Shown here piece by piece: positions 1-12,804 of a DNA stretch of 61,640 nt (within the stretch, counting starts at the first letter, position 1; each line of letters opens with the position of its first letter). A program made the translations under genes and the position numbers. The notes beneath the pieces were generated by a model. It was not told the origin of the DNA. It did not search any database and saw nothing but the letters and a program-made list of their open reading frames with translations. The stretch spans positions 1 through 61,640 of the forward strand of contig CALGNO010000174.1 of the NCBI GenBank assembly GCA_937958625.1. Reading direction: 5' to 3'. The stretch is from an uncultured Neomegalonema sp. (lineage in GTDB: Bacteria > Pseudomonadota > Alphaproteobacteria > Rhodobacterales > Rhodobacteraceae).

Positions 1-263
1 GTCATGAACAAGACCGGCGTACTGGCGAAAGCCGGTATTTCCTTGATCTTGCGGCAGAGCTCAAAGCCATTCATGCCCGGCATGACGGCATCCAGAAGAA
101 TGACATCTGGCTCGATCCGGTTCAACAGATTGAGGGCAGACGGCCCGTCGCGGGCAACCAGCGCGGTCAGGCCGACTCCCTCCAGCGCATCGATCAACAT
201 GCGCAGCGTCTCCGGGTTGTCATCCACCAGCATCACGACTCCGGCGGAATGGGGTTCAAGCAT
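1..263 (-). CDS. Response regulator receiver protein (partial; C-terminus runs off the window)
   Basis: Minus-strand frame reads MLEPHSAGVVMLVDDNPETLRMLIDALEGVGL...PDVILLDAVMPGMNGFEL...PVLFMT, a typical REC domain; overlaps the 3' end of the hybrid kinase gene. Confidence 0.85.
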   Translation of the reverse strand, partial: MLEPHSAGVVMLVDDNPETLRMLIDALEGVGLTALVARDGPSALNLLNRIEPDVILLDAVMPGMNGFELCRKIKEIPAFASTPVLFM

Positions 264-3200
264 CGCGCGCCTCCTCGACCAGTTTTTCCAGCCCCGTGAG
301 GTCCAACTCCTCGATCAGTTGTTCGGCCTTGGCGACAAAGGCCGAGTGTTCGGGTGTATCGGTGTCGATGGCCGCAACCGCATCGCTCAATCCGCGGAAA
401 TAGCCAATCCCAAGCATGTCCTCGATCACGCCGAGGTCTTGGGCCGGTGCCGTCTTGCGCGAGGCCGCAATGTCACGCGGCGGCGCATCGTTGAGCCATG
501 TGAGCTTCAGATGGCGTTCAAGACGGTCGAGCAACAGTTCGATATTGATGGGTTTCGCGATGAAATCGTCGTGGTGACTGACACCCTCGGGCACCGCGAC
601 GGCATTGTCCACATGGGCCGAAACCATGATGATCGGTGCGTCCAACGCAAGATCGGTGCGCAGTTTGGCGGCCAGCGTCCACCCCGACATTCCCGGCATC
701 GCCACGTCGATGAGGGCAAGGTCCGGCGGCGCGGCCTCGGCCTGGCGCAAAGCCACTTCGCCGGTTTCGGACAGGGATAATTCGAAGCCAAGGGGCCGCA
801 GAATATCCTCGAGCAGCATCCGGTGCTCGGGATTATCATCGACGATCAGCAAGCGCCGCCGAGGCCCCCGATACCCGAACAGGCGACGGTGAGGTTCGAT
901 GGGTTTTTCGTTGGTTATGCGGGGCAACATCATGCGTACGTGAAAGCAGGAGCCGTGATCGACCGAACTGCTCAGGGTCATCTCTCCCCCGAAGACTTCG
1001 GTGAGCAGTTTGGCGATCGTCAGGCCAAGACCTGTCCCCGGTAACGGCGCGTCGGGGTCTTCGATTCGCTCGAACGGCATGAAGATACGCTCGTGGTCGC
1101 TTTCCGGGATGCCGCGTCCCGTATCCTCGATGGCAAATGTCGCCACGTCGCTGCGAAAATCGACCGAGAACCGGACCTCGCCGGAGTCCGTATAGCGGAC
1201 GGCATTCGAGAGCAGGTTGGTCAGAATCTGCCTCAGGCGCCGCTCGTCGGCATAGGCGCGCTCGGGTAGGTTGCGGGAGACCGTGTAGATAAAGCGCAGG
1301 TTTTTCTCGTCGGCCTGCATCTGGAATATCGCGGCCATCTGGTCGACGAGTTCACGCAGTGCGATTTCCTTGCGCGCCAGCTCGAGTTTTCCGGCCTCGA
1401 TCTTGGAAATATCCAGCAAGCCCTCGATCAGGTCGGCAAGATGCTCCGATGATCGCCGCATGACGCGCACTGCCGGGCGGGAATGATCCGGCGTGATCGG
1501 GTCGTTTTCCAGCAATTGCGCATAGCCGAGAATCGCATTCAGGGGCGTCCGCAATTCATGGCTGATCCCGGCGATATAACGGCTCTTGGCGTTGCTGGCG
1601 GCCTCGGCGATGTCGCGGGCGCGTTGCAGCTCTTCATCCGTGCGGCGATGGGCGCGGATTTCGGCGTGCAGGCGGCTGGTTTCGCGCTCGCGTTCTTCGG
1701 TCGCCATCCGCCGACTTTCCTGAGCCAGTGTCAGCAGCCAGGCGGCGACACCGATGACCATCGACAACAATCCGAAGATCAACAGCAGCATCCGGTCCAT
1801 TGCCGCGACCGCATCGTCGGTCATCGTGTCACCGCGGTATCGGACCATCAGCAGCAACAGCGCGACGATGGCGATGAACCCGGCGGCAGTGCACAGAAAT
1901 GCCCCATAGCGCGACGTGGCAAACGCCGCCGCCCGGGCTGGCAGTGTCGCGGCGGCGAAGGCCCTTATCTGCGGGCCGATGCTCGCGTCGGGCCGACATA
2001 AATCGCCGCACCCGGTTTCCAGCCCGCAACAGAGGGAGCAAATCGGCGCGCGGTGAAACGGACAGACGATCATGTCTTCGCCGTCGAATGTGTATTCGCA
2101 GATGGCACAGGTCTTGGCGCTTGAATCGCGGCTTGGCGCGCCTTCGCCCGAAAGATAAAACCGCCCCCCCGTGCCCCAGGCGACCAGCGGTGTGACGACC
2201 AGCGCGACCGCGAGGGCGATGAAGCCCGAAAACGCCGCCGTCGTCTCGCCAAACATTCCCAGATACGCGGCGACCGATATGGCGGTGGCCGACAGGGTTC
2301 CCGCGACGCCCACCGGATTGATGTCGAACAGATGCCCGCGCCGAAACTCGATATGCCGGGGGCGCAGGCCCAGCGCCCGGTTGATCACCAAGTCGGCGGT
2401 CAGGGTTCCGATCCACGCAACGGCGATATGAGCATAAAGACCGAGGGTCTCCTCCAGCGCACCGAAGACGCCAAGCTGCATCAGCAGAACCGCAATCGCG
2501 ACATTGAACATCAGCCACACGACCCGTCCGGGGTGGCTGTGGGTCAGGCGCGAAAAGAAATTCGACCACGCGATGGACCCGGCATAGGCGTTCGTCACGT
2601 TGATCTTGACCTGCGCCAGCAGCACCAGCAAAGCAGTGCAGGCCACCGCCATCTCATAGCTGAGAAACCGCTCGTATGCCGCAAGATACATGCGCGTCGG
2701 GTCGATGGCCTCGGATGGCGTCGCCCCTTGTGTGACCAGCAAAACGGCAAGGTACGACCCCGCCAGCATCTTCAGCGTGCCGATCACGGCCCAGCCCGGC
2801 CCGGCGGCGATGACCACGGCCCACCATTTCCGGCGCTCGCCGCGCGTCTTGGGTTCCGGCAAAAACCGAAGAAAGTCGACCTGCTCGCCGATCTGCGCCA
2901 TCAGGGCGAGCGCGACCCCGGCCCCCGCCGCGCACAGCACGATGTCAAAGCCGCCGCCCGCGCTTTCCAGCCGCCCGGTAAATTCCTGCCACGACGCAAA
3001 CTCGGCCCCGATGATCGCAAGCGCCACGAAGGGCAAGATCTGCAAAACGAGCCAGAGCGGCTGCGTGAGCGTCTGGAATGTCCCGATACGGCTGAAGCCA
3101 TGGGTCACCAGCGGAATCACGATCAAGGCGTTGAGCAGGTATCCGATCCAGAGCGGGATGCCGAAGAAAAGCTCCAGCGCCAGACTGAGAATCACCGCCT

Positions 3201-3627
3201 CCAGCGCGAAGAAAAGAAAGGTAAAGGTCGCATAGATCAACGACGTAAAAGTCGATCCGATATATCCGAACCCGGCACCCCGGGTCAGCAGGTCGATATC
3301 GACCCCCGCCTTTGCCGCGTGATAGCTGATCGGTAATCCGGTCAGAAACAAGATCGCCCCGACGATCAGGATCGCGGCAAAAGCATTGTCGAAGCCATAA
3401 CTGAGCGTGATCGCCGCGCCGATGGCCTCCAGCGCCAGAAATGAAATCGACCCGAGCGCCGTATTCGCGACGCGGGCATAGGACCACCGCCGCGCCCGTC
3501 TTGCGGTAAAGCGCAGCGCAAAATCCTCGAGCGTCTCGTTCGCCGCCCATTGGTTATAGGTGCGTCGTGCGCCGCTGATCCGCGCCGGCTTCGCAGGATG
3601 GTCGGATGCGTCGGTCATCGACCTCAC
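256..3627 (-). CDS. NCS1-type transporter / Cys-rich / hybrid histidine kinase-receiver fusion (1123 aa)
   Basis: N-terminal ~480 aa polytopic and NCS1/permease-like; CAICEYTF..CPFHRAPICSLCCGLETGCGDLC cluster; HisKA motif SHELRTPLNAILGYAQLL; HATPase DTGRGIPE/GTGLGLTI; REC domain LLIVDDNPEHRMLLEDIL. Confidence 0.85.
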   Translation of the reverse strand: MRSMTDASDHPAKPARISGARRTYNQWAANETLEDFALRFTARRARRWSYARVANTALGSISFLALEAIGAAITLSYGFDNAFAAILIVGAILFLTGLPISYHAAKAGVDIDLLTRGAGFGYIGSTFTSLIYATFTFLFFALEAVILSLALELFFGIPLWIGYLLNALIVIPLVTHGFSRIGTFQTLTQPLWLVLQILPFVALAIIGAEFASWQEFTGRLESAGGGFDIVLCAAGAGVALALMAQIGEQVDFLRFLPEPKTRGERRKWWAVVIAAGPGWAVIGTLKMLAGSYLAVLLVTQGATPSEAIDPTRMYLAAYERFLSYEMAVACTALLVLLAQVKINVTNAYAGSIAWSNFFSRLTHSHPGRVVWLMFNVAIAVLLMQLGVFGALEETLGLYAHIAVAWIGTLTADLVINRALGLRPRHIEFRRGHLFDINPVGVAGTLSATAISVAAYLGMFGETTAAFSGFIALAVALVVTPLVAWGTGGRFYLSGEGAPSRDSSAKTCAICEYTFDGEDMIVCPFHRAPICSLCCGLETGCGDLCRPDASIGPQIRAFAAATLPARAAAFATSRYGAFLCTAAGFIAIVALLLLMVRYRGDTMTDDAVAAMDRMLLLIFGLLSMVIGVAAWLLTLAQESRRMATEERERETSRLHAEIRAHRRTDEELQRARDIAEAASNAKSRYIAGISHELRTPLNAILGYAQLLENDPITPDHSRPAVRVMRRSSEHLADLIEGLLDISKIEAGKLELARKEIALRELVDQMAAIFQMQADEKNLRFIYTVSRNLPERAYADERRLRQILTNLLSNAVRYTDSGEVRFSVDFRSDVATFAIEDTGRGIPESDHERIFMPFERIEDPDAPLPGTGLGLTIAKLLTEVFGGEMTLSSSVDHGSCFHVRMMLPRITNEKPIEPHRRLFGYRGPRRRLLIVDDNPEHRMLLEDILRPLGFELSLSETGEVALRQAEAAPPDLALIDVAMPGMSGWTLAAKLRTDLALDAPIIMVSAHVDNAVAVPEGVSHHDDFIAKPINIELLLDRLERHLKLTWLNDAPPRDIAASRKTAPAQDLGVIEDMLGIGYFRGLSDAVAAIDTDTPEHSAFVAKAEQLIEELDLTGLEKLVEEARDA

Positions 3628-3792
3628 GGGTTTTTGGGTTCGGTAACGGCAGCGCGCACGTCTTCAACTAAGCCAATCATACAGGGCACATTTACCCAGG
3701 GCACTACGCATAAATACCCATATGTGCAGTGCAGCAAAGTCCTCAGGGTATTTCCATCGGTAGGGCCGCACCGGCGCGGCGTATTGCTTTAG

Positions 3793-5082
3793 ATGGAGAG
3801 CACGATGACCAAGCGACCTGAGTCAGAGACGTCGACGACCGGCCCTTCGCGGCGCGGGGTGTTGATGGGAGCCACCGCCGCCGCCATGACGGCCTCGCTG
3901 TTCACGCCCAAGACCTTGCGTGCGGCGGACTTTCCCACCGCCGAGGTCAATACCACCGGCCTTGCCGTGACCGATGATGCGGTGACGATTGGCATCCTGC
4001 ACTCGATCACCGGCACGATGTCGATCTCAGAAACAGGCTCGGTACAGGCCGAAAAACTCGCCATCGAGCAAATCAACGCCCAGGGCGGTATTCTGGGTCG
4101 CAAGATCGAGTACATTCAGGAAGACGGCGCGTCGGACTGGCCGACCTTCGCGGAAAAATCCCGCAAGTTGCTGGTGCAGGACAAGGTTGCGTCCGTGATG
4201 GGGTGCTGGACGTCCGCCAGCCGTAAGGCGGTGCTGCCGGTCTTCGAACAGCATAACGGGTTCCTCTACTACCCCACCTTCTACGAGGGTCTGGAGCAAT
4301 CCCCCAACGTGATCTACACGGGGCAAGAGGCCACGCAGCAGATTATCGCGGGCCTCGACTGGGTCGCCCGCGAGAAGGGTGCGGAGACGTTCTACCTGCT
4401 CGGGTCCGACTACATCTGGCCGCGCACCTCGAACAAGATTGCGCGCAAGCACATCGAGAACTTCCTCGGCAAGCGCGTTCTGGGCGAGGAGTACTATCCC
4501 CTCGGTCACACGCAGTTCAACTCGGTCATCAACAAGATCCGCCTACGCAAACCCGACGTGATCTACGCGATCGTCGTCGGCGGTTCGAACGTGGCGTTCT
4601 ACAAGCAGCTCAAGGCTGCCGGTATCGACATGACCGAGGAAAAGCCGCTGCTGCTGACCATCTCCGTCACCGAGGACGAGATTCGCGGCATCGGCGGCGA
4701 GAATATCGAGGGCGCGTATGCCTGCATGAAATATTTCCAGAGCCTCGACAACGAGAACAACATCGAATTCGTCAAGGCATTCAAGGAGATGTGGGGCGAC
4801 GATATGGTGATCGGCGACGTGACCCAGGCCGCTTATCTCGGCCCGTGGCTCTACAAGGCCGCCGTGGAAAAGGCCGGCTCGTTCGACGTCGATAAGGTCC
4901 GCGAGGCCAGCCCTGGCATCGAACTGGACACGGCCCCCGAGGGCTACGTCAAGGTTCACGAAAACCACCACCTCTGGTCCAAAACCCGCGTGGGCCGCGC
5001 CCAGGCCGATGGCCAGTACGACGTGGTCTTCGAGACCGCCGATCTGGTCGAGCCGGACCCGTTCCCGGAAGGCTACCAATAA
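3793..5082 (+). CDS. urtA: Urea/short-chain amide ABC transporter substrate-binding protein (UrtA/FmdD type), Tat-like leader
   Basis: SRRGVLMGATAAA leader; ITGTMSISETGSVQAEKLAIEQINAQGGILGRKIEYIQEDGASDWPTFAEKS; first gene of a five-gene ABC set followed by formamidase. Confidence 0.85.
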   Translation: MESTMTKRPESETSTTGPSRRGVLMGATAAAMTASLFTPKTLRAADFPTAEVNTTGLAVTDDAVTIGILHSITGTMSISETGSVQAEKLAIEQINAQGGILGRKIEYIQEDGASDWPTFAEKSRKLLVQDKVASVMGCWTSASRKAVLPVFEQHNGFLYYPTFYEGLEQSPNVIYTGQEATQQIIAGLDWVAREKGAETFYLLGSDYIWPRTSNKIARKHIENFLGKRVLGEEYYPLGHTQFNSVINKIRLRKPDVIYAIVVGGSNVAFYKQLKAAGIDMTEEKPLLLTISVTEDEIRGIGGENIEGAYACMKYFQSLDNENNIEFVKAFKEMWGDDMVIGDVTQAAYLGPWLYKAAVEKAGSFDVDKVREASPGIELDTAPEGYVKVHENHHLWSKTRVGRAQADGQYDVVFETADLVEPDPFPEGYQ

Positions 5083-5103
5083 CCGCGTCGGCCTGTGGCT
5101 ACC

Positions 5104-5133
5104 CTCTGCCCCGGATCGAAATCCGGGGCAGAG
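5104..5133 (+). terminator. Perfect 13-bp hairpin (CGAA loop) between urtA and urtB
   Basis: CTCTGCCCCGGAT-CGAA-ATCCGGGGCAGAG; no strong T-tract, so possibly an mRNA-stabilising stem rather than a full terminator. Confidence 0.7.
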
Positions 5134-5163
5134 ATTGAATTTTCGCCGAAACCGGAGTCAGCG

Positions 5164-6090
5164 ATGTTTGACGGATATACCAGCAGTGAACTCACCGCGA
5201 TTTTCGCCATGCAAGGCTTTGCCGGGCTGAGTCTCTTTTCTGTTTATGTCCTCATGGCGCTGGGGCTGGCGATTATCTTCGGCCAGATGGGCGTCATCAA
5301 CATGGCCCATGGCGAGTTCATGATCCTGGGTGCCTACGTCACCTATCTGGTCTCGATCCTGTTCGCCGAATACATGCCCGCTCTCTTCGGCATCTATTTC
5401 TTCATCGCGATGATCCTCGCCTTCATCGCCTCGGGCCTTTTGGGCATGTTTGTAGAATGGGCGATGATACGCCATCTCTACAAGCGCCCGCTGGATACCT
5501 TGCTAGCGACTTGGGGTCTGAGCCTGATCCTGCAACAGATTTACCGCTCGACCTTTGGCGCACGCGAAGTCGGGGTGAGTATCCCGGACTGGATGATGGG
5601 ATCGATTGCGGTCACCGATCTGGTCGAGATCCCGATCAACGGTCTCTTCGTGATGGCCGTGACCATCATCATCGCAACGAGCGTCGGCGTCATGATGTAC
5701 CGCTCGCTCTGGGGCAGGCAGGTGCGCGCGGTCGTGCAGAATCGCACGATGGCAGGGGCCGTCGGCATTGATACCGGACGCACCGACCGACTGACCTTTG
5801 GCATCGGTTGCGGGATTGCGGGTGTCGCCGGATCGGCCTTCACCATGATCGGGTCGACCGGGCCGACCGCCGGACAGCTTTACATCGTGGATACGTTCCT
5901 CGTTGTCGTCTTCGGCGGCGCGGCCAGCCTGCTCGGCACCATCGCCTCGGCCTTCACGATCTCCCAGACCCAGTCGATCCTCGAATTCTTCATCTCCGGG
6001 TCGATGGCGAAGGTTCTCACGCTGCTCACCGTGGTCGGCATCCTGATGCTGCGGCCCCAGGGCCTCTTTTCCCTGAAACTCCGTAAGTGA
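5164..6090 (+). CDS. urtB: Urea/amide ABC transporter permease UrtB-like
   Basis: LIV-H-type permease; MALGLAIIFGQMGVINMAHGEFMILGAY. Confidence 0.85.
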   Translation: MFDGYTSSELTAIFAMQGFAGLSLFSVYVLMALGLAIIFGQMGVINMAHGEFMILGAYVTYLVSILFAEYMPALFGIYFFIAMILAFIASGLLGMFVEWAMIRHLYKRPLDTLLATWGLSLILQQIYRSTFGAREVGVSIPDWMMGSIAVTDLVEIPINGLFVMAVTIIIATSVGVMMYRSLWGRQVRAVVQNRTMAGAVGIDTGRTDRLTFGIGCGIAGVAGSAFTMIGSTGPTAGQLYIVDTFLVVVFGGAASLLGTIASAFTISQTQSILEFFISGSMAKVLTLLTVVGILMLRPQGLFSLKLRK

Positions 6091-6101
6091 GGTCTGATCC
6101 G

Positions 6102-7286
6102 ATGTCCGATGTCTCGACACCCGACCCGCGCCAGAGCCGCCTGTTCACGGCCTCCGAACTGCTCGGCTATCTCGTTCTCGCGGCGGTTATTTTCATCGTG
6201 CTGCCCTCCGTGCTGGACGCATTCCGGCTCAACCTCTTCGGCAAGTACCTGAGCTATGCCTTCGTCGCCATCGGGCTGGTGCTGTGTTGGGGCGTCGGCG
6301 GTATCCTGTCGCTGGGACAAGGCGTGTTCTTCGGCCTCGGCGGCTATTGCATGGCGATGTTTCTGAAACTGGAGGCATCGACGCCCGAGAATACGTCGAT
6401 CCAGTCAACGCCCGGCATCCCGGACTTCATGGACTGGAACCAGTTGACCGAGCTGCCCTGGTGGTGGGTGCCGTTCAACTCGCTGACTTTTACAGTGGTG
6501 GCAATCGTCGTCGTTCCGGTCATTCTCGCCTTCATCATCGGGTTTGCGATGTTCACCCGGCGGGTTGGCGGGGTCTACTTCGCCATCATCACCCAGGCGA
6601 TTGCGGCCATCGCGACCATCCTGATTATCGGCCAGCAAGGCTTTACCGGCGGCGTCAACGGCATCACCGACCTGCGCACGCTGATGGGATGGGACATTCG
6701 CCCGGACAGCGCAAAGACGGCGCTCTATTTCGTCAACGGCGTCCTGCTGTTCGCTGTGCTGTTCGTCGCCCATATGATCCTCAAATCAAAGGCGGGCCGC
6801 CTGATGATCGCCATTCGCGACCGTGAGGACCGGGTCCGGTTCTCGGGCTATAACGTCGCGAACTTCAAGATTTTCGTCTTCTGCGCGGGCGCTGCCTTCG
6901 CGGCCATCGGCGGCGCGATGTTCACCCTGCAAGTCGGGTTCATTTCGCCGACCCTCGTGGGCATCGTGCCATCGATCTACATGGTGATCTTCTGCGCCGT
7001 GGGCGGTCGTCTCTCGCTGCTCGGTGCGGTCTATGGGGCCCTGCTGGTCAATTGGGCGCAGACGACATTTTCCGAGAGCTTCCCGGAGCTTTGGCTGCTC
7101 GCCATGGGTGCGCTGTTCATCGCCGTCGTCATGGCCTTCCCGCTCGGCCTGGCCGGTCTCTACGACGATTACCTGAAGCGCCATATCGACCGCCTGCTCG
7201 CACCCGTCGATCGGATGATGATGCGCCGTGCCGCGCGCAAGACCTCGCCGAAAGCCCCGGCCCCGACCGCTCAGGCGGCAGAATAG
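6102..7286 (+). CDS. urtC: Urea/amide ABC transporter permease UrtC-like
   Basis: LIV-M-type permease; GVGGILSLGQGVFFGLGGYCMAMFLKLE. Confidence 0.85.
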   Translation: MSDVSTPDPRQSRLFTASELLGYLVLAAVIFIVLPSVLDAFRLNLFGKYLSYAFVAIGLVLCWGVGGILSLGQGVFFGLGGYCMAMFLKLEASTPENTSIQSTPGIPDFMDWNQLTELPWWWVPFNSLTFTVVAIVVVPVILAFIIGFAMFTRRVGGVYFAIITQAIAAIATILIIGQQGFTGGVNGITDLRTLMGWDIRPDSAKTALYFVNGVLLFAVLFVAHMILKSKAGRLMIAIRDREDRVRFSGYNVANFKIFVFCAGAAFAAIGGAMFTLQVGFISPTLVGIVPSIYMVIFCAVGGRLSLLGAVYGALLVNWAQTTFSESFPELWLLAMGALFIAVVMAFPLGLAGLYDDYLKRHIDRLLAPVDRMMMRRAARKTSPKAPAPTAQAAE

Positions 7287-7296
7287 GAGACCCGAC

Positions 7297-8043
7297 ATGG
7301 TCGCATCCACCGACTATCTGCTCGCGGTCGAAGGACTGACGGTTTCCTTCGACGGGTTCCGGGCGGTCGACGACCTCAGCTTCTACGTGGACAAAAACGA
7401 AATCCGCGTGATCATCGGCCCCAACGGCGCGGGCAAAACCACGGTCCTCGACCTGATTTGCGGACGGACGAAGGCAACCGGCGGATCGGTTCAGTTCAAG
7501 AACCGCGAACTGCTGAAAATGCGCGAGGATCAGATCGTCCATGCCGGAGTCGGGCGCAAGTTCCAGACCCCGTCGATCTACGACGATCTGACCGTCTTTG
7601 AGAATCTCGAACTCAGCACCCCGGGCAGCTACACGGTTTTTGGTGCCCTCGCCTTCAAACGCACGGGCGAAGTGATCGCGAGAATCGAGGAAATCGCGGA
7701 GATGATTTTTCTCTCCGACCTGCTCGACCAAAAGGCCGCCCTGCTCAGCCATGGACAAAAGCAATGGCTCGAAATCGGGATGTTGCTGATCCAAGACCCT
7801 GAGCTGCTGATGCTGGACGAACCGGTGGCGGGCATGTCGGTCGCCGAGCGCAAGAAAACCGCCGAGTTGCTGAACACGATCACCAAGGGCCGCTCGGTCC
7901 TCGTGGTCGAGCACGACATGAAGTTCGTCGAGGACATCGCCCACAAGGTCACGGTCCTGCACCAGGGAAAAATCCTGGCGGAGGGGTCCATGGACGCGGT
8001 TCAGGCCGATCCAAAAGTCATCGAAGTCTATCTCGGCCATTGA
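7297..8043 (+). CDS. urtD: Urea/amide ABC transporter ATP-binding protein UrtD-like
   Basis: Walker A GPNGAGKTT, LSHGQKQWLEIGMLL, LMLDEPVAGM. Confidence 0.88.
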   Translation: MVASTDYLLAVEGLTVSFDGFRAVDDLSFYVDKNEIRVIIGPNGAGKTTVLDLICGRTKATGGSVQFKNRELLKMREDQIVHAGVGRKFQTPSIYDDLTVFENLELSTPGSYTVFGALAFKRTGEVIARIEEIAEMIFLSDLLDQKAALLSHGQKQWLEIGMLLIQDPELLMLDEPVAGMSVAERKKTAELLNTITKGRSVLVVEHDMKFVEDIAHKVTVLHQGKILAEGSMDAVQADPKVIEVYLGH

Positions 8044-8053
8044 GGAAAATAGA

Positions 8054-8743
8054 ATGCTCAACGTCTCCGATCTGCATGTTTCCTACGGCCAGTCCGAAGT
8101 TCTGCACGGCATCGACTTCGCCGTGCAACCGGGCGAGATCGTTGCCATCATGGGCCGCAACGGCATGGGCAAGACCACGCTGATGAAATCGCTGATGGGC
8201 GTGGTGCCCAGCGGCTCGGGTTCCATCACCATCGACGGCGCGGAAGTCTCCAAACTGAAATCCCACAAGCGCGTTGCCAGCGGCTTTGGCTACGTGCCGC
8301 AAGGGCGCGCGATCTTCTCGACCATGACCGTGAAGGAAAACGTCGAAACCGGCCTTTCCTCGACCGGCGAGAAGACGGTGCCCGAGGACATTTACGAGTT
8401 GTTCCCCGTGCTGGTCGAGATGGCCGGTCGCCGGGGCGGTAACCTCTCGGGTGGCCAGCAACAGCAACTCGCCGTCGCCCGCGCGCTGGCCTCGAAACCC
8501 AAGGTTCTGCTGCTGGACGAGCCGACCGAGGGCATCCAGCCGAGCATCATTCGCGAGATGGCCCGCGTCCTGCGCCGCATCCGCGACGAGCGGGGCCTGT
8601 CCATCGTGGTGTCGGAACAAGTCCTGAGCTTTGCCCTCGATGTCGCCGACCGGGTGCTAGTGATGGAAAACGGCACCTTCGTTCACGAGGCCCCGCGAGA
8701 GGGCATCGACGAGGAGCGCGTCTCGCGATTCCTGTCTGTCTGA
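8054..8743 (+). CDS. urtE: Urea/amide ABC transporter ATP-binding protein UrtE-like
   Basis: GRNGMGKTTLMKSLMG, LSGGQQQQLAVARAL, LLLDEPTEGIQPSI. Confidence 0.88.
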   Translation: MLNVSDLHVSYGQSEVLHGIDFAVQPGEIVAIMGRNGMGKTTLMKSLMGVVPSGSGSITIDGAEVSKLKSHKRVASGFGYVPQGRAIFSTMTVKENVETGLSSTGEKTVPEDIYELFPVLVEMAGRRGGNLSGGQQQQLAVARALASKPKVLLLDEPTEGIQPSIIREMARVLRRIRDERGLSIVVSEQVLSFALDVADRVLVMENGTFVHEAPREGIDEERVSRFLSV

Positions 8744-8779: not shown

Positions 8780-10009
8780 ATGGCTGATACCCTTATTTCC
8801 GTAGACCTGAGCGAAAGCCCCCACACGAATGAAAAGGTGCACAACCGCTGGCACTGCGACATTCCCATGGCGGATTGGGTGGAGCCGGGCGACGATTTTC
8901 TGATCGAGACCTATGACTGGACCGGCGGTCAGATCAAAAACGACGACGACGCGGCAGATGTGCGCGATGTCGAGCTTGAGCAGGTTCACTATCTTTCCGG
9001 TCCCATTGGCGTAAAGGGCGCGCAGCCCGGTGATCTGCTGGTCGTCGAGATCCTCGACATCGGCGCGAAAGAAGAGATGCAGTGGGGCTTCAACGGCTTT
9101 TTCTCAAAACAAAATGGCGGCGGCTTCCTGACCGAGCATTTCCCCGAGGCGCAAAAGTCGATCTGGGATTTCCACGGCATGTTCACGTCGTCGCGCCATG
9201 TGCCGGGTGTGAAATACGCTGGTCTGATCCACCCCGGTCTGATCGGGTGTCTGCCTGACCGTAAGATGCTGGATATGTGGAACGAGCGTGAAAGCGCCTT
9301 GGTCGCCACCGACCCCGAGCGCGTCCCGCCCCTCGCCGCCCTCCCCAACACCCAAAGCGCCCACATGGGCAAGATGACCGGCGAGGCTCGCGACAAGGCC
9401 GCGACCGAGGCCGCGCGCACCGTGCCGCCCCGCGAGCATGGCGGGAACTGTGACATCAAGGATTTGAGCCGCGGCTGCAAAATCTACTTCCCGGTCTATG
9501 TCGACGGCGCGGGTCTTTCGATGGGCGATCTTCACTTTAGTCAGGGCGACGGCGAGATCACCTTCTGCGGGGCCATCGAGATGGCCGGCTGGCTTCACCT
9601 GAAGGTCGAGCTTGTGAAGGACGGGATGAGCAAATACGGCGTGAAGAACCCGATCTTCAAGCCTTCGCCGATCAAACCGAAATACGATGATTTCCTGATC
9701 TTTGAGGGTATTTCCGTCGATGAAAGCGGAAAGCAGCATTACCTCGACGTGCATGTCGCCTATCGTCAGGCGTGTCTCAATGCCATCGAGTACCTGAAGA
9801 AGTTCGGTTACACGGGCGCGCAAGCCTACGCGATCCTCGGCACCGCGCCGGTTCAGGGACATATCTCGGGCGTCGTCGATATTCCGAACGCCTGCGCGAC
9901 GCTTTGGCTGCCGACCGACATCTTTGAGTGGGATATGATGCCCAATGCCGACGGGCCGACGAAATATCTCGACGGGTCGGTGGACATTCCGCTTGCGCCA
10001 GACCTCTGA
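8780..10009 (+). CDS. fmdA: Formamidase (FmdA, acetamidase/formamidase family)
   Basis: MADTLISVDLSESPHTNEKVHNRWHCDIP...FNGFFSKQNGGGFLTEHFP...PPREHGGNCDIKDLSRG. Confidence 0.9.
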   Translation: MADTLISVDLSESPHTNEKVHNRWHCDIPMADWVEPGDDFLIETYDWTGGQIKNDDDAADVRDVELEQVHYLSGPIGVKGAQPGDLLVVEILDIGAKEEMQWGFNGFFSKQNGGGFLTEHFPEAQKSIWDFHGMFTSSRHVPGVKYAGLIHPGLIGCLPDRKMLDMWNERESALVATDPERVPPLAALPNTQSAHMGKMTGEARDKAATEAARTVPPREHGGNCDIKDLSRGCKIYFPVYVDGAGLSMGDLHFSQGDGEITFCGAIEMAGWLHLKVELVKDGMSKYGVKNPIFKPSPIKPKYDDFLIFEGISVDESGKQHYLDVHVAYRQACLNAIEYLKKFGYTGAQAYAILGTAPVQGHISGVVDIPNACATLWLPTDIFEWDMMPNADGPTKYLDGSVDIPLAPDL

Positions 10010-10046: not shown

Positions 10047-10068
10047 CTCTCGAAACTCCGAGGTTCCC

Positions 10069-10401
10069 ATGCCTGTCTACGAATACCAATGCGACGACCA
10101 CGGCGTCTTTGAAGCGATCCAGCCGATGGCCGCCTTTCGCGACCCGTGCGCCTGCCCCGCCTGCGGCACCGAGAGCCGCCGCGTGATGCTGACCGCCCCC
10201 GTGCGCAGCTCGACCGACCGCTCAACGATCAAGGCGCACGGTATCAACGAACGCTCTGCTGACAGCCCGAAAAAGGCGAGCACCCACGGACCGGGATGCT
10301 CCTGTTGCAGTGGCAGCAAGAAGAAAAGCCGCAAGACCCTTCACCGCCCCGACGGATCAAAGAGCTTCCCAAGCGCTCGGCCCTGGATGATCTCGCACTG
10401 A
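10069..10401 (+). CDS. fmdB: FmdB family zinc-ribbon protein
   Basis: MPVYEYQCDDHGVFEAIQPM...CACPACGTESRRVML. Confidence 0.85.
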   Translation: MPVYEYQCDDHGVFEAIQPMAAFRDPCACPACGTESRRVMLTAPVRSSTDRSTIKAHGINERSADSPKKASTHGPGCSCCSGSKKKSRKTLHRPDGSKSFPSARPWMISH

Positions 10402-11559: not shown

Positions 11560-12804
11560 TTATCCTTCGTGTTTCATGACGTCGAACGACTGAATATTCG
11601 GCGGCTCTGACCGCCACGGGCTGGGCGAGGCGGCCAACGCCTTTCCTGCCTCGAACAGTTCTCGCATCAACGCCGGGTCGAAATCCAGCGATGCCCCTTC
11701 ACCGGTATAGGCCTCGGGGACGGACGCCAGGTGAAACTCGGTATCGGAGTTCACGGCACGCGCGTATCCCCGGTAGACCGTTTGAATCAAAAGCTGACGC
11801 AACATCGTGCTGATTGATTTTTGAGCGATGTCGGCCAGGTCCGGTGCGACGGCGGCATACGCATTTCGCTCGGACAGAATATCGTTGACGATCACATAAA
11901 GATTGCGATCTTTCGCCGAAGCCCGGAACAGGAAATCGCTCAACAGAACCGGGGCCTTCAGCCCGCCATCGACATGGGCCTGGCGCAACTCCATGCCTTT
12001 TCGCGGCTTTATGTAGACGGGCCGAAAATAGACCGGCACGGTGGCCGAGGCGCGCAGGACTTTCCTGAAATGCAGCGCTGGATCGGCGCGATTGCCGCTG
12101 GCTATGGCACCCATATCCCAGACAATCAGGTCGCCGGAATCCAGATTGGTCGTCCCGATATAAAGCCTGCGTCCCTTGGCATGTTCGCGCGCAACTCGGG
12201 CGATAATCTCCGGCGCGATGGCCTGCTCTATCGCCCGCATGAGCGGTGTATTGTCATAGAGGCTGTCGGACAGGTATCCGAGCGCTCCCCGGTCAGTATA
12301 GATGTCGGCGTTCTGCACCTCGGTATAGAGTTCGCGAAGTTGCGCGTCATACTCCGGCCCGAGGAAAGCGAAAACGGACATGAGCGCGCCGGTCGATACA
12401 CCCGTGACGATATCGAATTCGGGCCGCGTGCCGGACTCGCTCCAACCGGTCAGAACGCCCGCGCCGAACGCGCCCCATGCGCCGCCGGAGGACAGCGCGA
12501 GGATATTGAGAGTCTGGTCGCTATCTTCATAGCCGACCCGATCGACCGGAACGATCTCCTGATTCTGCGGATTGATCGCTTCGATGGGCAGTGCCGTCCG
12601 ATATTCAGGGCTTTCCGGGGGCCGTTCGGTGCACCCCGTCATGGCGCTGGCGATGAAACCTGCGACGAGGACGATCACGCCGGTTTTCCGTGTCACAACG
12701 ATGCCTCCCCGACCAAGCGCAGCACTGCAATCCTCAGGTTTCATGCGTGCGGCAATCGAATACACCCATGCGGCAAAGATGCCGCAGCGAGGTTTTCTCT
12801 GCAA
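11560..12804 (-). CDS. Patatin-like phospholipase, probable lipoprotein (start uncertain)
   Basis: SSGGAWGAFGAGVLTGW, GVSTGAL nucleophile elbow, DGGL; lipobox-like AMTGC. Confidence 0.8.
   Translation of the reverse strand: MQRKPRCGIFAAWVYSIAARMKPEDCSAALGRGGIVVTRKTGVIVLVAGFIASAMTGCTERPPESPEYRTALPIEAINPQNQEIVPVDRVGYEDSDQTLNILALSSGGAWGAFGAGVLTGWSESGTRPEFDIVTGVSTGALMSVFAFLGPEYDAQLRELYTEVQNADIYTDRGALGYLSDSLYDNTPLMRAIEQAIAPEIIARVAREHAKGRRLYIGTTNLDSGDLIVWDMGAIASGNRADPALHFRKVLRASATVPVYFRPVYIKPRKGMELRQAHVDGGLKAPVLLSDFLFRASAKDRNLYVIVNDILSERNAYAAVAPDLADIAQKSISTMLRQLLIQTVYRGYARAVNSDTEFHLASVPEAYTGEGASLDFDPALMRELFEAGKALAASPSPWRSEPPNIQSFDVMKHEG

Follow-up and report, generated by a model that had tools for sequence, protein, structure and literature searches.

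Which signal is read by a histidine kinase whose presumed sensory part resembles a membrane transporter? The question is raised by a hybrid sensor kinase gene at the edge of contig CALGNO010000174.1 from an uncultured Neomegalonema sp. (assembly GCA_937958625.1). The whole stretch analyzed, 61,640 nucleotides (nt) long, is called the window below. An earlier interpretation made from the letters alone (the sequence-only reading) had proposed that the transporter domain senses a nucleobase, hydantoin or amide-related nitrogen source and controls the adjacent urtABCDE-fmdA-fmdB operon. We predict that the protein is a urea/short-amide receptor kinase that would control this divergent uptake-and-hydrolysis operon through a LuxR-type regulator, a reading to which we give a probability of about 0.75. 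The evidence comes from the domain make-up of the protein, the conservation of its family, the gene neighborhoods of the family members and an inverted repeat that recurs in their upstream regions.

A hybrid kinase with a transporter-like domain

The kinase gene and its partner comprise the following features:

256..3627 (-): hybrid sensor kinase gene, 1123 amino acids (aa), GTG start; NCS1-like domain, eight-cysteine module, hairpin of two transmembrane (TM) helices, HisKA, HATPase and REC
2143..3570 (-): NCS1-like polytopic domain, residues ~20-495
1996..2109 (-): eight-cysteine module, residues 507-544
1732..1899 (-): two-helix membrane hairpin ahead of the kinase, residues ~577-632 (family-averaged hydropathy peaks at 579-594 and 614-630)
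1390..1590 (-): HisKA with phospho-acceptor H690
925..1248 (-): HATPase_c
520..849 (-): REC domain with phospho-acceptor D974
3..263 (-): response regulator, first 87 aa inside the window; LuxR/GerE type in relatives, with complete copies at loci L016, L011 and L244

The 1123-aa frame ending in HisKA, HATPase and REC, as first described from the letters, is confirmed as an open frame with Pfam matches to HisKA (residues 680-746, 4.8e-19), HATPase_c (794-901, 2e-25) and REC (927-1036, 2.1e-20). With its His in HisKA and its Asp in REC, the protein is a hybrid sensor histidine kinase. H690 is kept in 94 of the 95 aligned rows, the remaining row having no kinase, and D974 in 92, the other three having no REC. 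Ahead of these domains, the transporter-like domain, the presumed antenna, has 12 helices. Neither a second copy of the sensor nor a PF02133 transporter was found in the window's own genome.

The second response regulator that had been said to overlap the end of the kinase gene is also real, with an overlap of 8 nt. Only its first 87 aa are known because the window starts at a contig edge. At the locus of the nearest relative (L016, uncultured Neomegalonema, 83%), the regulator is complete and consists of REC and GerE (LuxR-type). Across the family, a regulator gene follows within 700 nt of the kinase in 92 of 102 members. In one clade (family f168), six members (L107, L109, L110, L114, L116 and L119) lack a family-type regulator gene in this 700-nt range. 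Some members are short (885-894 aa) and lack REC (L139, 7257-9914; L140, 7281-9965); they adjoin fmdA and amiS. In their Paracoccus relatives L178 and L179, a separate response regulator gene comes next.

Urea and amide genes beside the kinase family

On the other side of the kinase gene lie:

3628..3792: divergent intergenic region
3702..3723 (+): degenerate copy of the family inverted repeat, candidate regulator site
3793..5082 (+): urtA, substrate-binding protein (TIGR03407, 542.9 bits, cut-off 492.75)
5095..6090 (+): urtB, permease (TIGR03409)
6087..7286 (+): urtC, permease (TIGR03408)
7297..8043 (+): urtD, ATPase (TIGR03411)
8054..8743 (+): urtE, ATPase (TIGR03410)
8780..10009 (+): fmdA, formamidase (NF045496, 770 bits, cut-off 500)
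10063..10401 (+): fmdB-type zinc-ribbon protein (TIGR02605 and NF053663)

UrtA to UrtE, FmdA and the FmdB-type protein all score above the NCBIfam cut-offs, and the claimed divergence of the kinase gene from urtABCDE-fmdA-fmdB is borne out. A second, canonical UrtA is encoded on contig C13 of the same genome.

Family members were gathered with a profile of the sensor and not by neighborhood, save for a few hand-picked plasmid loci. Among alphaproteobacteria the profile matches 22 of 289 genomes, and phylum-wide it matches 71 of 398, with a few weak partial matches included. The sequence-only reading had suggested a survey of co-occurrence with urt and fmd genes. Urea/amide genes (urt, fmdA, urease, amiE or amiS) lie within ~10 kb of 94 of the 103 members, and in 67 of these 94 a divergent urea/amide gene starts no more than 700 nt away. 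The nine members without such genes comprise two at contig ends, four from Tistrella, and L108, L142 and L184. Searched with the same references, nine unrelated loci, a small control, gave no match to urt, fmdA or urease.

Several classes of operon recur: urtABCDE accompanied by fmdA (and often by amiE or a nitrilase), urtABCDE either with urease or lacking it, urease on its own (L175), and fmdA with an AmiS/UreI channel (L178 and L179); a few of these labels come from low-identity matches, and the Klebsiella plasmid enzyme, for instance, is nearer to AmiE/AmiF than to FmdA. The uptake route and the enzyme vary, and the common theme is urea or a short amide. Five genomes (G417, G456, G470, G580 and G642) encode two sensors, in each case one beside an amide operon and one beside a urea/urease operon. 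Operon type tracks the sensor tree, the amide label changing 11 times compared with a mean of 36.8 after shuffling. The search for residues separating amide-linked from urea-linked sensors had no power, with no more than 4 independent pairs available on branches that were supported. Purine, nucleobase or hydantoin genes are not prominent among the annotated neighbors of linked members; a xanthine dehydrogenase is found at L184, a locus without urea/amide genes.

An inverted repeat in the intergenic regions

The upstream regions of 57 non-redundant members have in common an inverted repeat near TACGTNNNTTGACGTA. In a five-fold hold-out, the repeat was above threshold in 26 of the 57 regions and in 7 of 456 stretches drawn at random from the same loci. 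The copy in the window (CACTACGCATAAATACCCATAT), identical in L016, reaches 14.7 bits with a 22-mer matrix (8.4 bits at 99% of shuffled sequences) and a weak 7.3 bits with a 16-mer matrix. The repeat fits as a candidate site of the LuxR-type regulator. Together with the neighborhoods, its conservation supports the earlier proposal that the transporter domain is a sensor whose target is the adjacent operon. Four Tistrella sensors (L162, L163, L165 and L174) have a strong copy of the repeat (28.4 bits) with no urea/amide genes near.

Assignment of the antenna to a remote NCS1 branch

The sequence-only reading had placed an NCS1 region in the protein and had named a domain search failing to recover it as evidence to the contrary. 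The direct search did fail: PF02133 (NCS1) has no match in the window protein, even with the N-terminus alone at E=10, nor in any member of our family alignment (A1). A PDB profile search with this alignment found nothing for the N-terminal ~500 residues, and an AlphaFold model of the transporter domain built from four sequences reached a pLDDT of only 41. Yet the assignment is upheld through intermediates. A stand-alone Klebsiella permease (P0002), which shares 42% identity with the window domain, matches PF02133 from end to end at 38.1 bits (cut-off 23.5), and a second intermediate (L148) likewise scores above the cut-off. Because these two pass, we attribute the miss to the limited reach of the model. 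In hhalign, the family matches classical NCS1 proteins at 97.2%, and adding CodB and the intermediates raises this to 99.45% (E 4.5e-22, 387 columns). Both alignments span 380-390 columns; the control, a Na/alanine symporter, gives 37.7% over 99 columns. Profile comparison and intermediates together assign the antenna to a remote NCS1 branch. Two Na/alanine symporters (L172 and L173) that weakly touched the alignment profile were rejected as relatives and served as controls.

Residue roles, and the constancy of the Arg216-Tyr285 pair, are taken from the authors of the CodB study (PMC9379551). This pair corresponds to R254 and Y348 and is invariant in the family (94/94). The aromatic pair that sandwiches the base in CodB (W108 and F204) is lost: the W108 position (residue 139) is Phe in 77 and Leu in 17 of 94 sequences, and the F204 position (L242) is Leu in 92 of 94. 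At the positions of the CodB Na2-site threonines, the window protein has I342/N343, alongside an invariant lysine, K341, whose exact partner is uncertain by one position because of a one-residue alignment gap in helix 8. With the NCS1 proteins CodB and Mhp1, the window family shares the fold and the Arg216-Tyr285 pair, whereas it lacks the aromatic sandwich and the Na2 ligands and carries a fused kinase and a cysteine tail.

Stand-alone permeases of the same branch

The branch also contains kinase-free proteins of 535-562 aa. We used 7 of them, ~40-49% identical where measured. Urease genes adjoin the stand-alone permease in Klebsiella and in Acinetobacter, fmdA in Moraxella and Tsukamurella, and an aliphatic amidase gene in Arthrobacter and Methylovirgula; no urea/amide neighbor was seen at the Streptomyces locus (L219). 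The pocket-region residues T136, E143, Q245, E248, Q249, K341, N343 and N346 are common to sensors and stand-alone permeases. Helix 1 differs between the two: position 66 is Asp in 7/7 stand-alone proteins and Leu (82/95) or another neutral residue in sensors, and position 67 is Glu in 93/95 sensors. In Acinetobacter baumannii, a sensor and its regulator are encoded divergently from a stand-alone permease of this same branch, and a copy of the repeat scoring 24 bits lies between them. The neighbors of the stand-alone proteins, the common pocket residues and the A. baumannii layout are the strongest pointers to urea or a small amide as the ligand. In Klebsiella pneumoniae, an NCS1-like permease annotated as a cytosine permease lies right behind ureDABCEFG (L182, 8941-10548) and is a candidate urea permease.

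A cysteine module inherited from the transporter

The dense Cys cluster noted from the letters is real: eight cysteines (C507, C510, C522, C530, C533, C534, C540 and C544), spaced C-x2-C-x11-C-x7-C-x2-CC-x5-C-x3-C, are present in 95/95 aligned homologues, and residue 525 is Tyr or His. Judged by hydropathy and charge, the module lies on the kinase side of the membrane, followed by the two-helix hairpin. Across 150 genomes, its profile matches this kinase family only. A small AlphaFold (AF2) model (pLDDT 76) has beta hairpins and a helix in a treble-clef-like arrangement. The top Foldseek neighbors of this model are RING/PHD/FYVE folds, none significant (best E 0.32), and the Pfam matches are weak (Prok-RING_1 at 0.6 and the FmdE treble clef at 0.023, one member each). 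Short CxxC-CxF stretches account for the PDB matches to C2H2 fingers, which were set aside as composition. Metal binding is likely, and the module probably forms two zinc sites.

The module had been regarded as an unusual extra element between transporter and kinase. This view does not stand, since the module is invariant across the family and also forms the C-terminal tail of stand-alone transporters. The motif is complete in Methylovirgula; about four cysteines are left in Klebsiella, Acinetobacter and Moraxella, and the ligands are degenerate in Arthrobacter and Tsukamurella. Because the stand-alone relatives end in the same cysteine tail, the module belongs to the transporter branch, and we interpret it as an old C-terminal tail of that branch, fixed upon kinase addition. 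Two other proteins carry related tails. A family kinase that has lost the transporter domain (L149, 6857-8713) retains just a remnant of cysteine tail and two-helix hairpin, and a Paracoccus NCS1 protein adjoining hydantoinase genes (L183, 5923-7551) has a CxxC...CxxC tail that resembles a reduced module.

Several of the nitrogen-scavenging operons encode metal enzymes, nickel urease among them. A two-input receptor is conceivable, in which the NCS1-like domain would read urea or a short amide and the eight-cysteine tail a metal (zinc or nickel) or the redox state, so that nitrogen-scavenging operons would be induced only with substrate and metal both available; we consider this quite unlikely.

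Relation to AmsSR and other transporter-fused kinases

One member of the family appears to have been studied already. AmsSR of A. baumannii (ABUW_2427/2426) is described as comprising a hybrid kinase, with 14 helices and no HPt, and a LuxR-type regulator whose gene overlaps the kinase gene by 4 nt, and is the sole LuxR-type sensor-regulator operon reported in strain AB5075 (PMC10112286, PMC5382811). The A. baumannii pair of our dataset has this layout: a hybrid kinase with 14 TM helices (counted from hydropathy and homology) and no HPt, 42% identical to the window protein over its full length, followed by a LuxR-type regulator with a 4-nt overlap (8 nt in the window). We infer from architecture, gene order and overlap, and not from the AB5075 sequence, that the pair is AmsSR and belongs to the same protein family as the window kinase. 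In the published work, AmsSR was induced by the protonophore CCCP, and mutants had lower intracellular pH, altered membrane polarity and metabolic rewiring (PMC10112286); no transporter domain, cysteine module, divergent permease or ligand is named (PMC10112286, PMC5382811). At the A. baumannii locus (L244, 2287-7563), the permease divergent from the sensor that we identify as AmsS is an obvious first AmsR target. AmsS as a CrbS-type SLC5 kinase was rejected: a CrbS-like gene (L249) has no regulator directly downstream, and the NCS1-type gene has one with the reported 4-nt overlap. In the CrbS-like kinase from this A. baumannii record, only the kinase part matches (26%).

The family is a transporter-fused kinase, a known kind, and one of its members had been studied before, under a different description. 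Like CbrA, CrbS (MxtR) and RpuS, it joins a transporter domain to a histidine kinase that works with a response regulator. Those proteins carry an SLC5 domain and a STAC linker, whereas the window family has an NCS1-like domain and the cysteine module; Pfam finds no SSF (SLC5) domain in the window protein, and STAC was not searched with a model of its own. Amt5 of Kuenenia stuttgartiensis likewise reuses a transporter fold as a receptor for a nitrogen compound on a histidine kinase, although its fold is Amt, its ligand ammonium and its sequence unrelated to the window family (PMC8534201). A literature search, which covered few subscription journals, found no published NCS1-kinase fusion, nor, in the literature searched, a membrane receptor kinase dedicated to urea or small amides.

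Proposed mechanism and alternatives

We propose that the remote NCS1-type (LeuT-fold) antenna binds urea or a short-chain amide, in the window most likely formamide or acetamide, and that binding shifts its conformation. The signal would reach HisKA (H690) via the cytosolic, presumably zinc-binding, cysteine tail and the two-helix hairpin, and the internal REC (D974) and the LuxR-type response regulator encoded directly downstream would finish the pathway. The regulator may then bind the inverted repeat between the divergent genes and induce urtABCDE-fmdA-fmdB, whose products are predicted to import the amide and hydrolyze it to ammonia.

Some observations weigh against this proposal. The repeat copy in the window itself is degenerate. 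Seven uncut neighborhoods (four Tistrella, L108, L142 and L184) have no urea/amide genes. AmsSR, the one experimentally studied member, is reported to be induced by CCCP and to affect central metabolism, with no mention of urea (PMC10112286). General nitrogen control by NtrC/sigma-54 could also act on the same operon.

A variant compatible with the same ligand is that the antenna is an active urea/amide importer fused to the kinase (a transceptor), with flux and not occupancy as the signal. CbrA of Pseudomonas unites transport and kinase activity (PMC7096432, PMC13022988), and most pocket-region residues are the same in sensors and stand-alone permeases. However, Asp66 of the stand-alone proteins is replaced by a neutral residue in sensors, which have Glu67 instead, a change that may mark the loss of coupling, and most operon classes already contain their own transporter or channel. 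We therefore place active import on the doubtful side.

A different signal, proton-motive force or cytosolic pH, is kept as a rival because of the reported AmsSR phenotypes (CCCP induction and lower pH) and because no ligand was named; architecture, gene order and the 4-nt overlap make AmsSR a family member. The operons would then be induced since ammonia from urea/amide hydrolysis buffers acid, and the replacement of the CodB Na2 threonines by I342/N343 beside the invariant K341 would fit proton coupling. Yet this leaves unexplained both the amide/urea split of paralogues within one genome and the pocket-region residues common with stand-alone permeases, and it appears unlikely. Sensing of a nucleobase, hydantoin or ureide, with urea/amide genes as downstream steps of purine/pyrimidine breakdown, agrees with the known substrates of classical NCS1 proteins (nucleobases, allantoin and hydantoins; PMC9379551) but is very improbable given that the aromatic sandwich is gone, that formamide/acetamide genes (fmdA, amiS, amiE) are not steps of these pathways and that, save for the xanthine dehydrogenase at L184, no purine or hydantoin genes are prominent among the annotated neighbors. 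Among the ligands that the sequence-only reading had offered, the amide, joined here by urea, is retained and the nucleobase or hydantoin is not.

If the urea/short-amide proposal is true, the family would provide a urea/small-amide receptor in about one in six sampled Pseudomonadota genomes and give the orphan AmsSR system a signal. Following the SLC5 and Amt cases, it would further add a third way in which a transporter became a kinase antenna, with stand-alone and fused forms both at hand for comparing transport with sensing.

Further loci

On a Klebsiella plasmid (L180, NZ_OM489432.1, 5897-16252), urtABCDE and a formamidase-type gene lie divergent to a full sensor and regulator. This is the one record read out of 342 Klebsiella plasmid records with a relative of the sensor's transporter domain. 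The locus resembles the urea-transport cluster discussed for the urinary-tract lineage CG307, in a text that makes no mention of a histidine kinase (PMC13060141); if our proposal is true, a regulator would be added to this plasmid-borne urea-uptake cluster. In the window, just past the operon, a frame at 11560-12804 (-) resembles a patatin-like lipoprotein.

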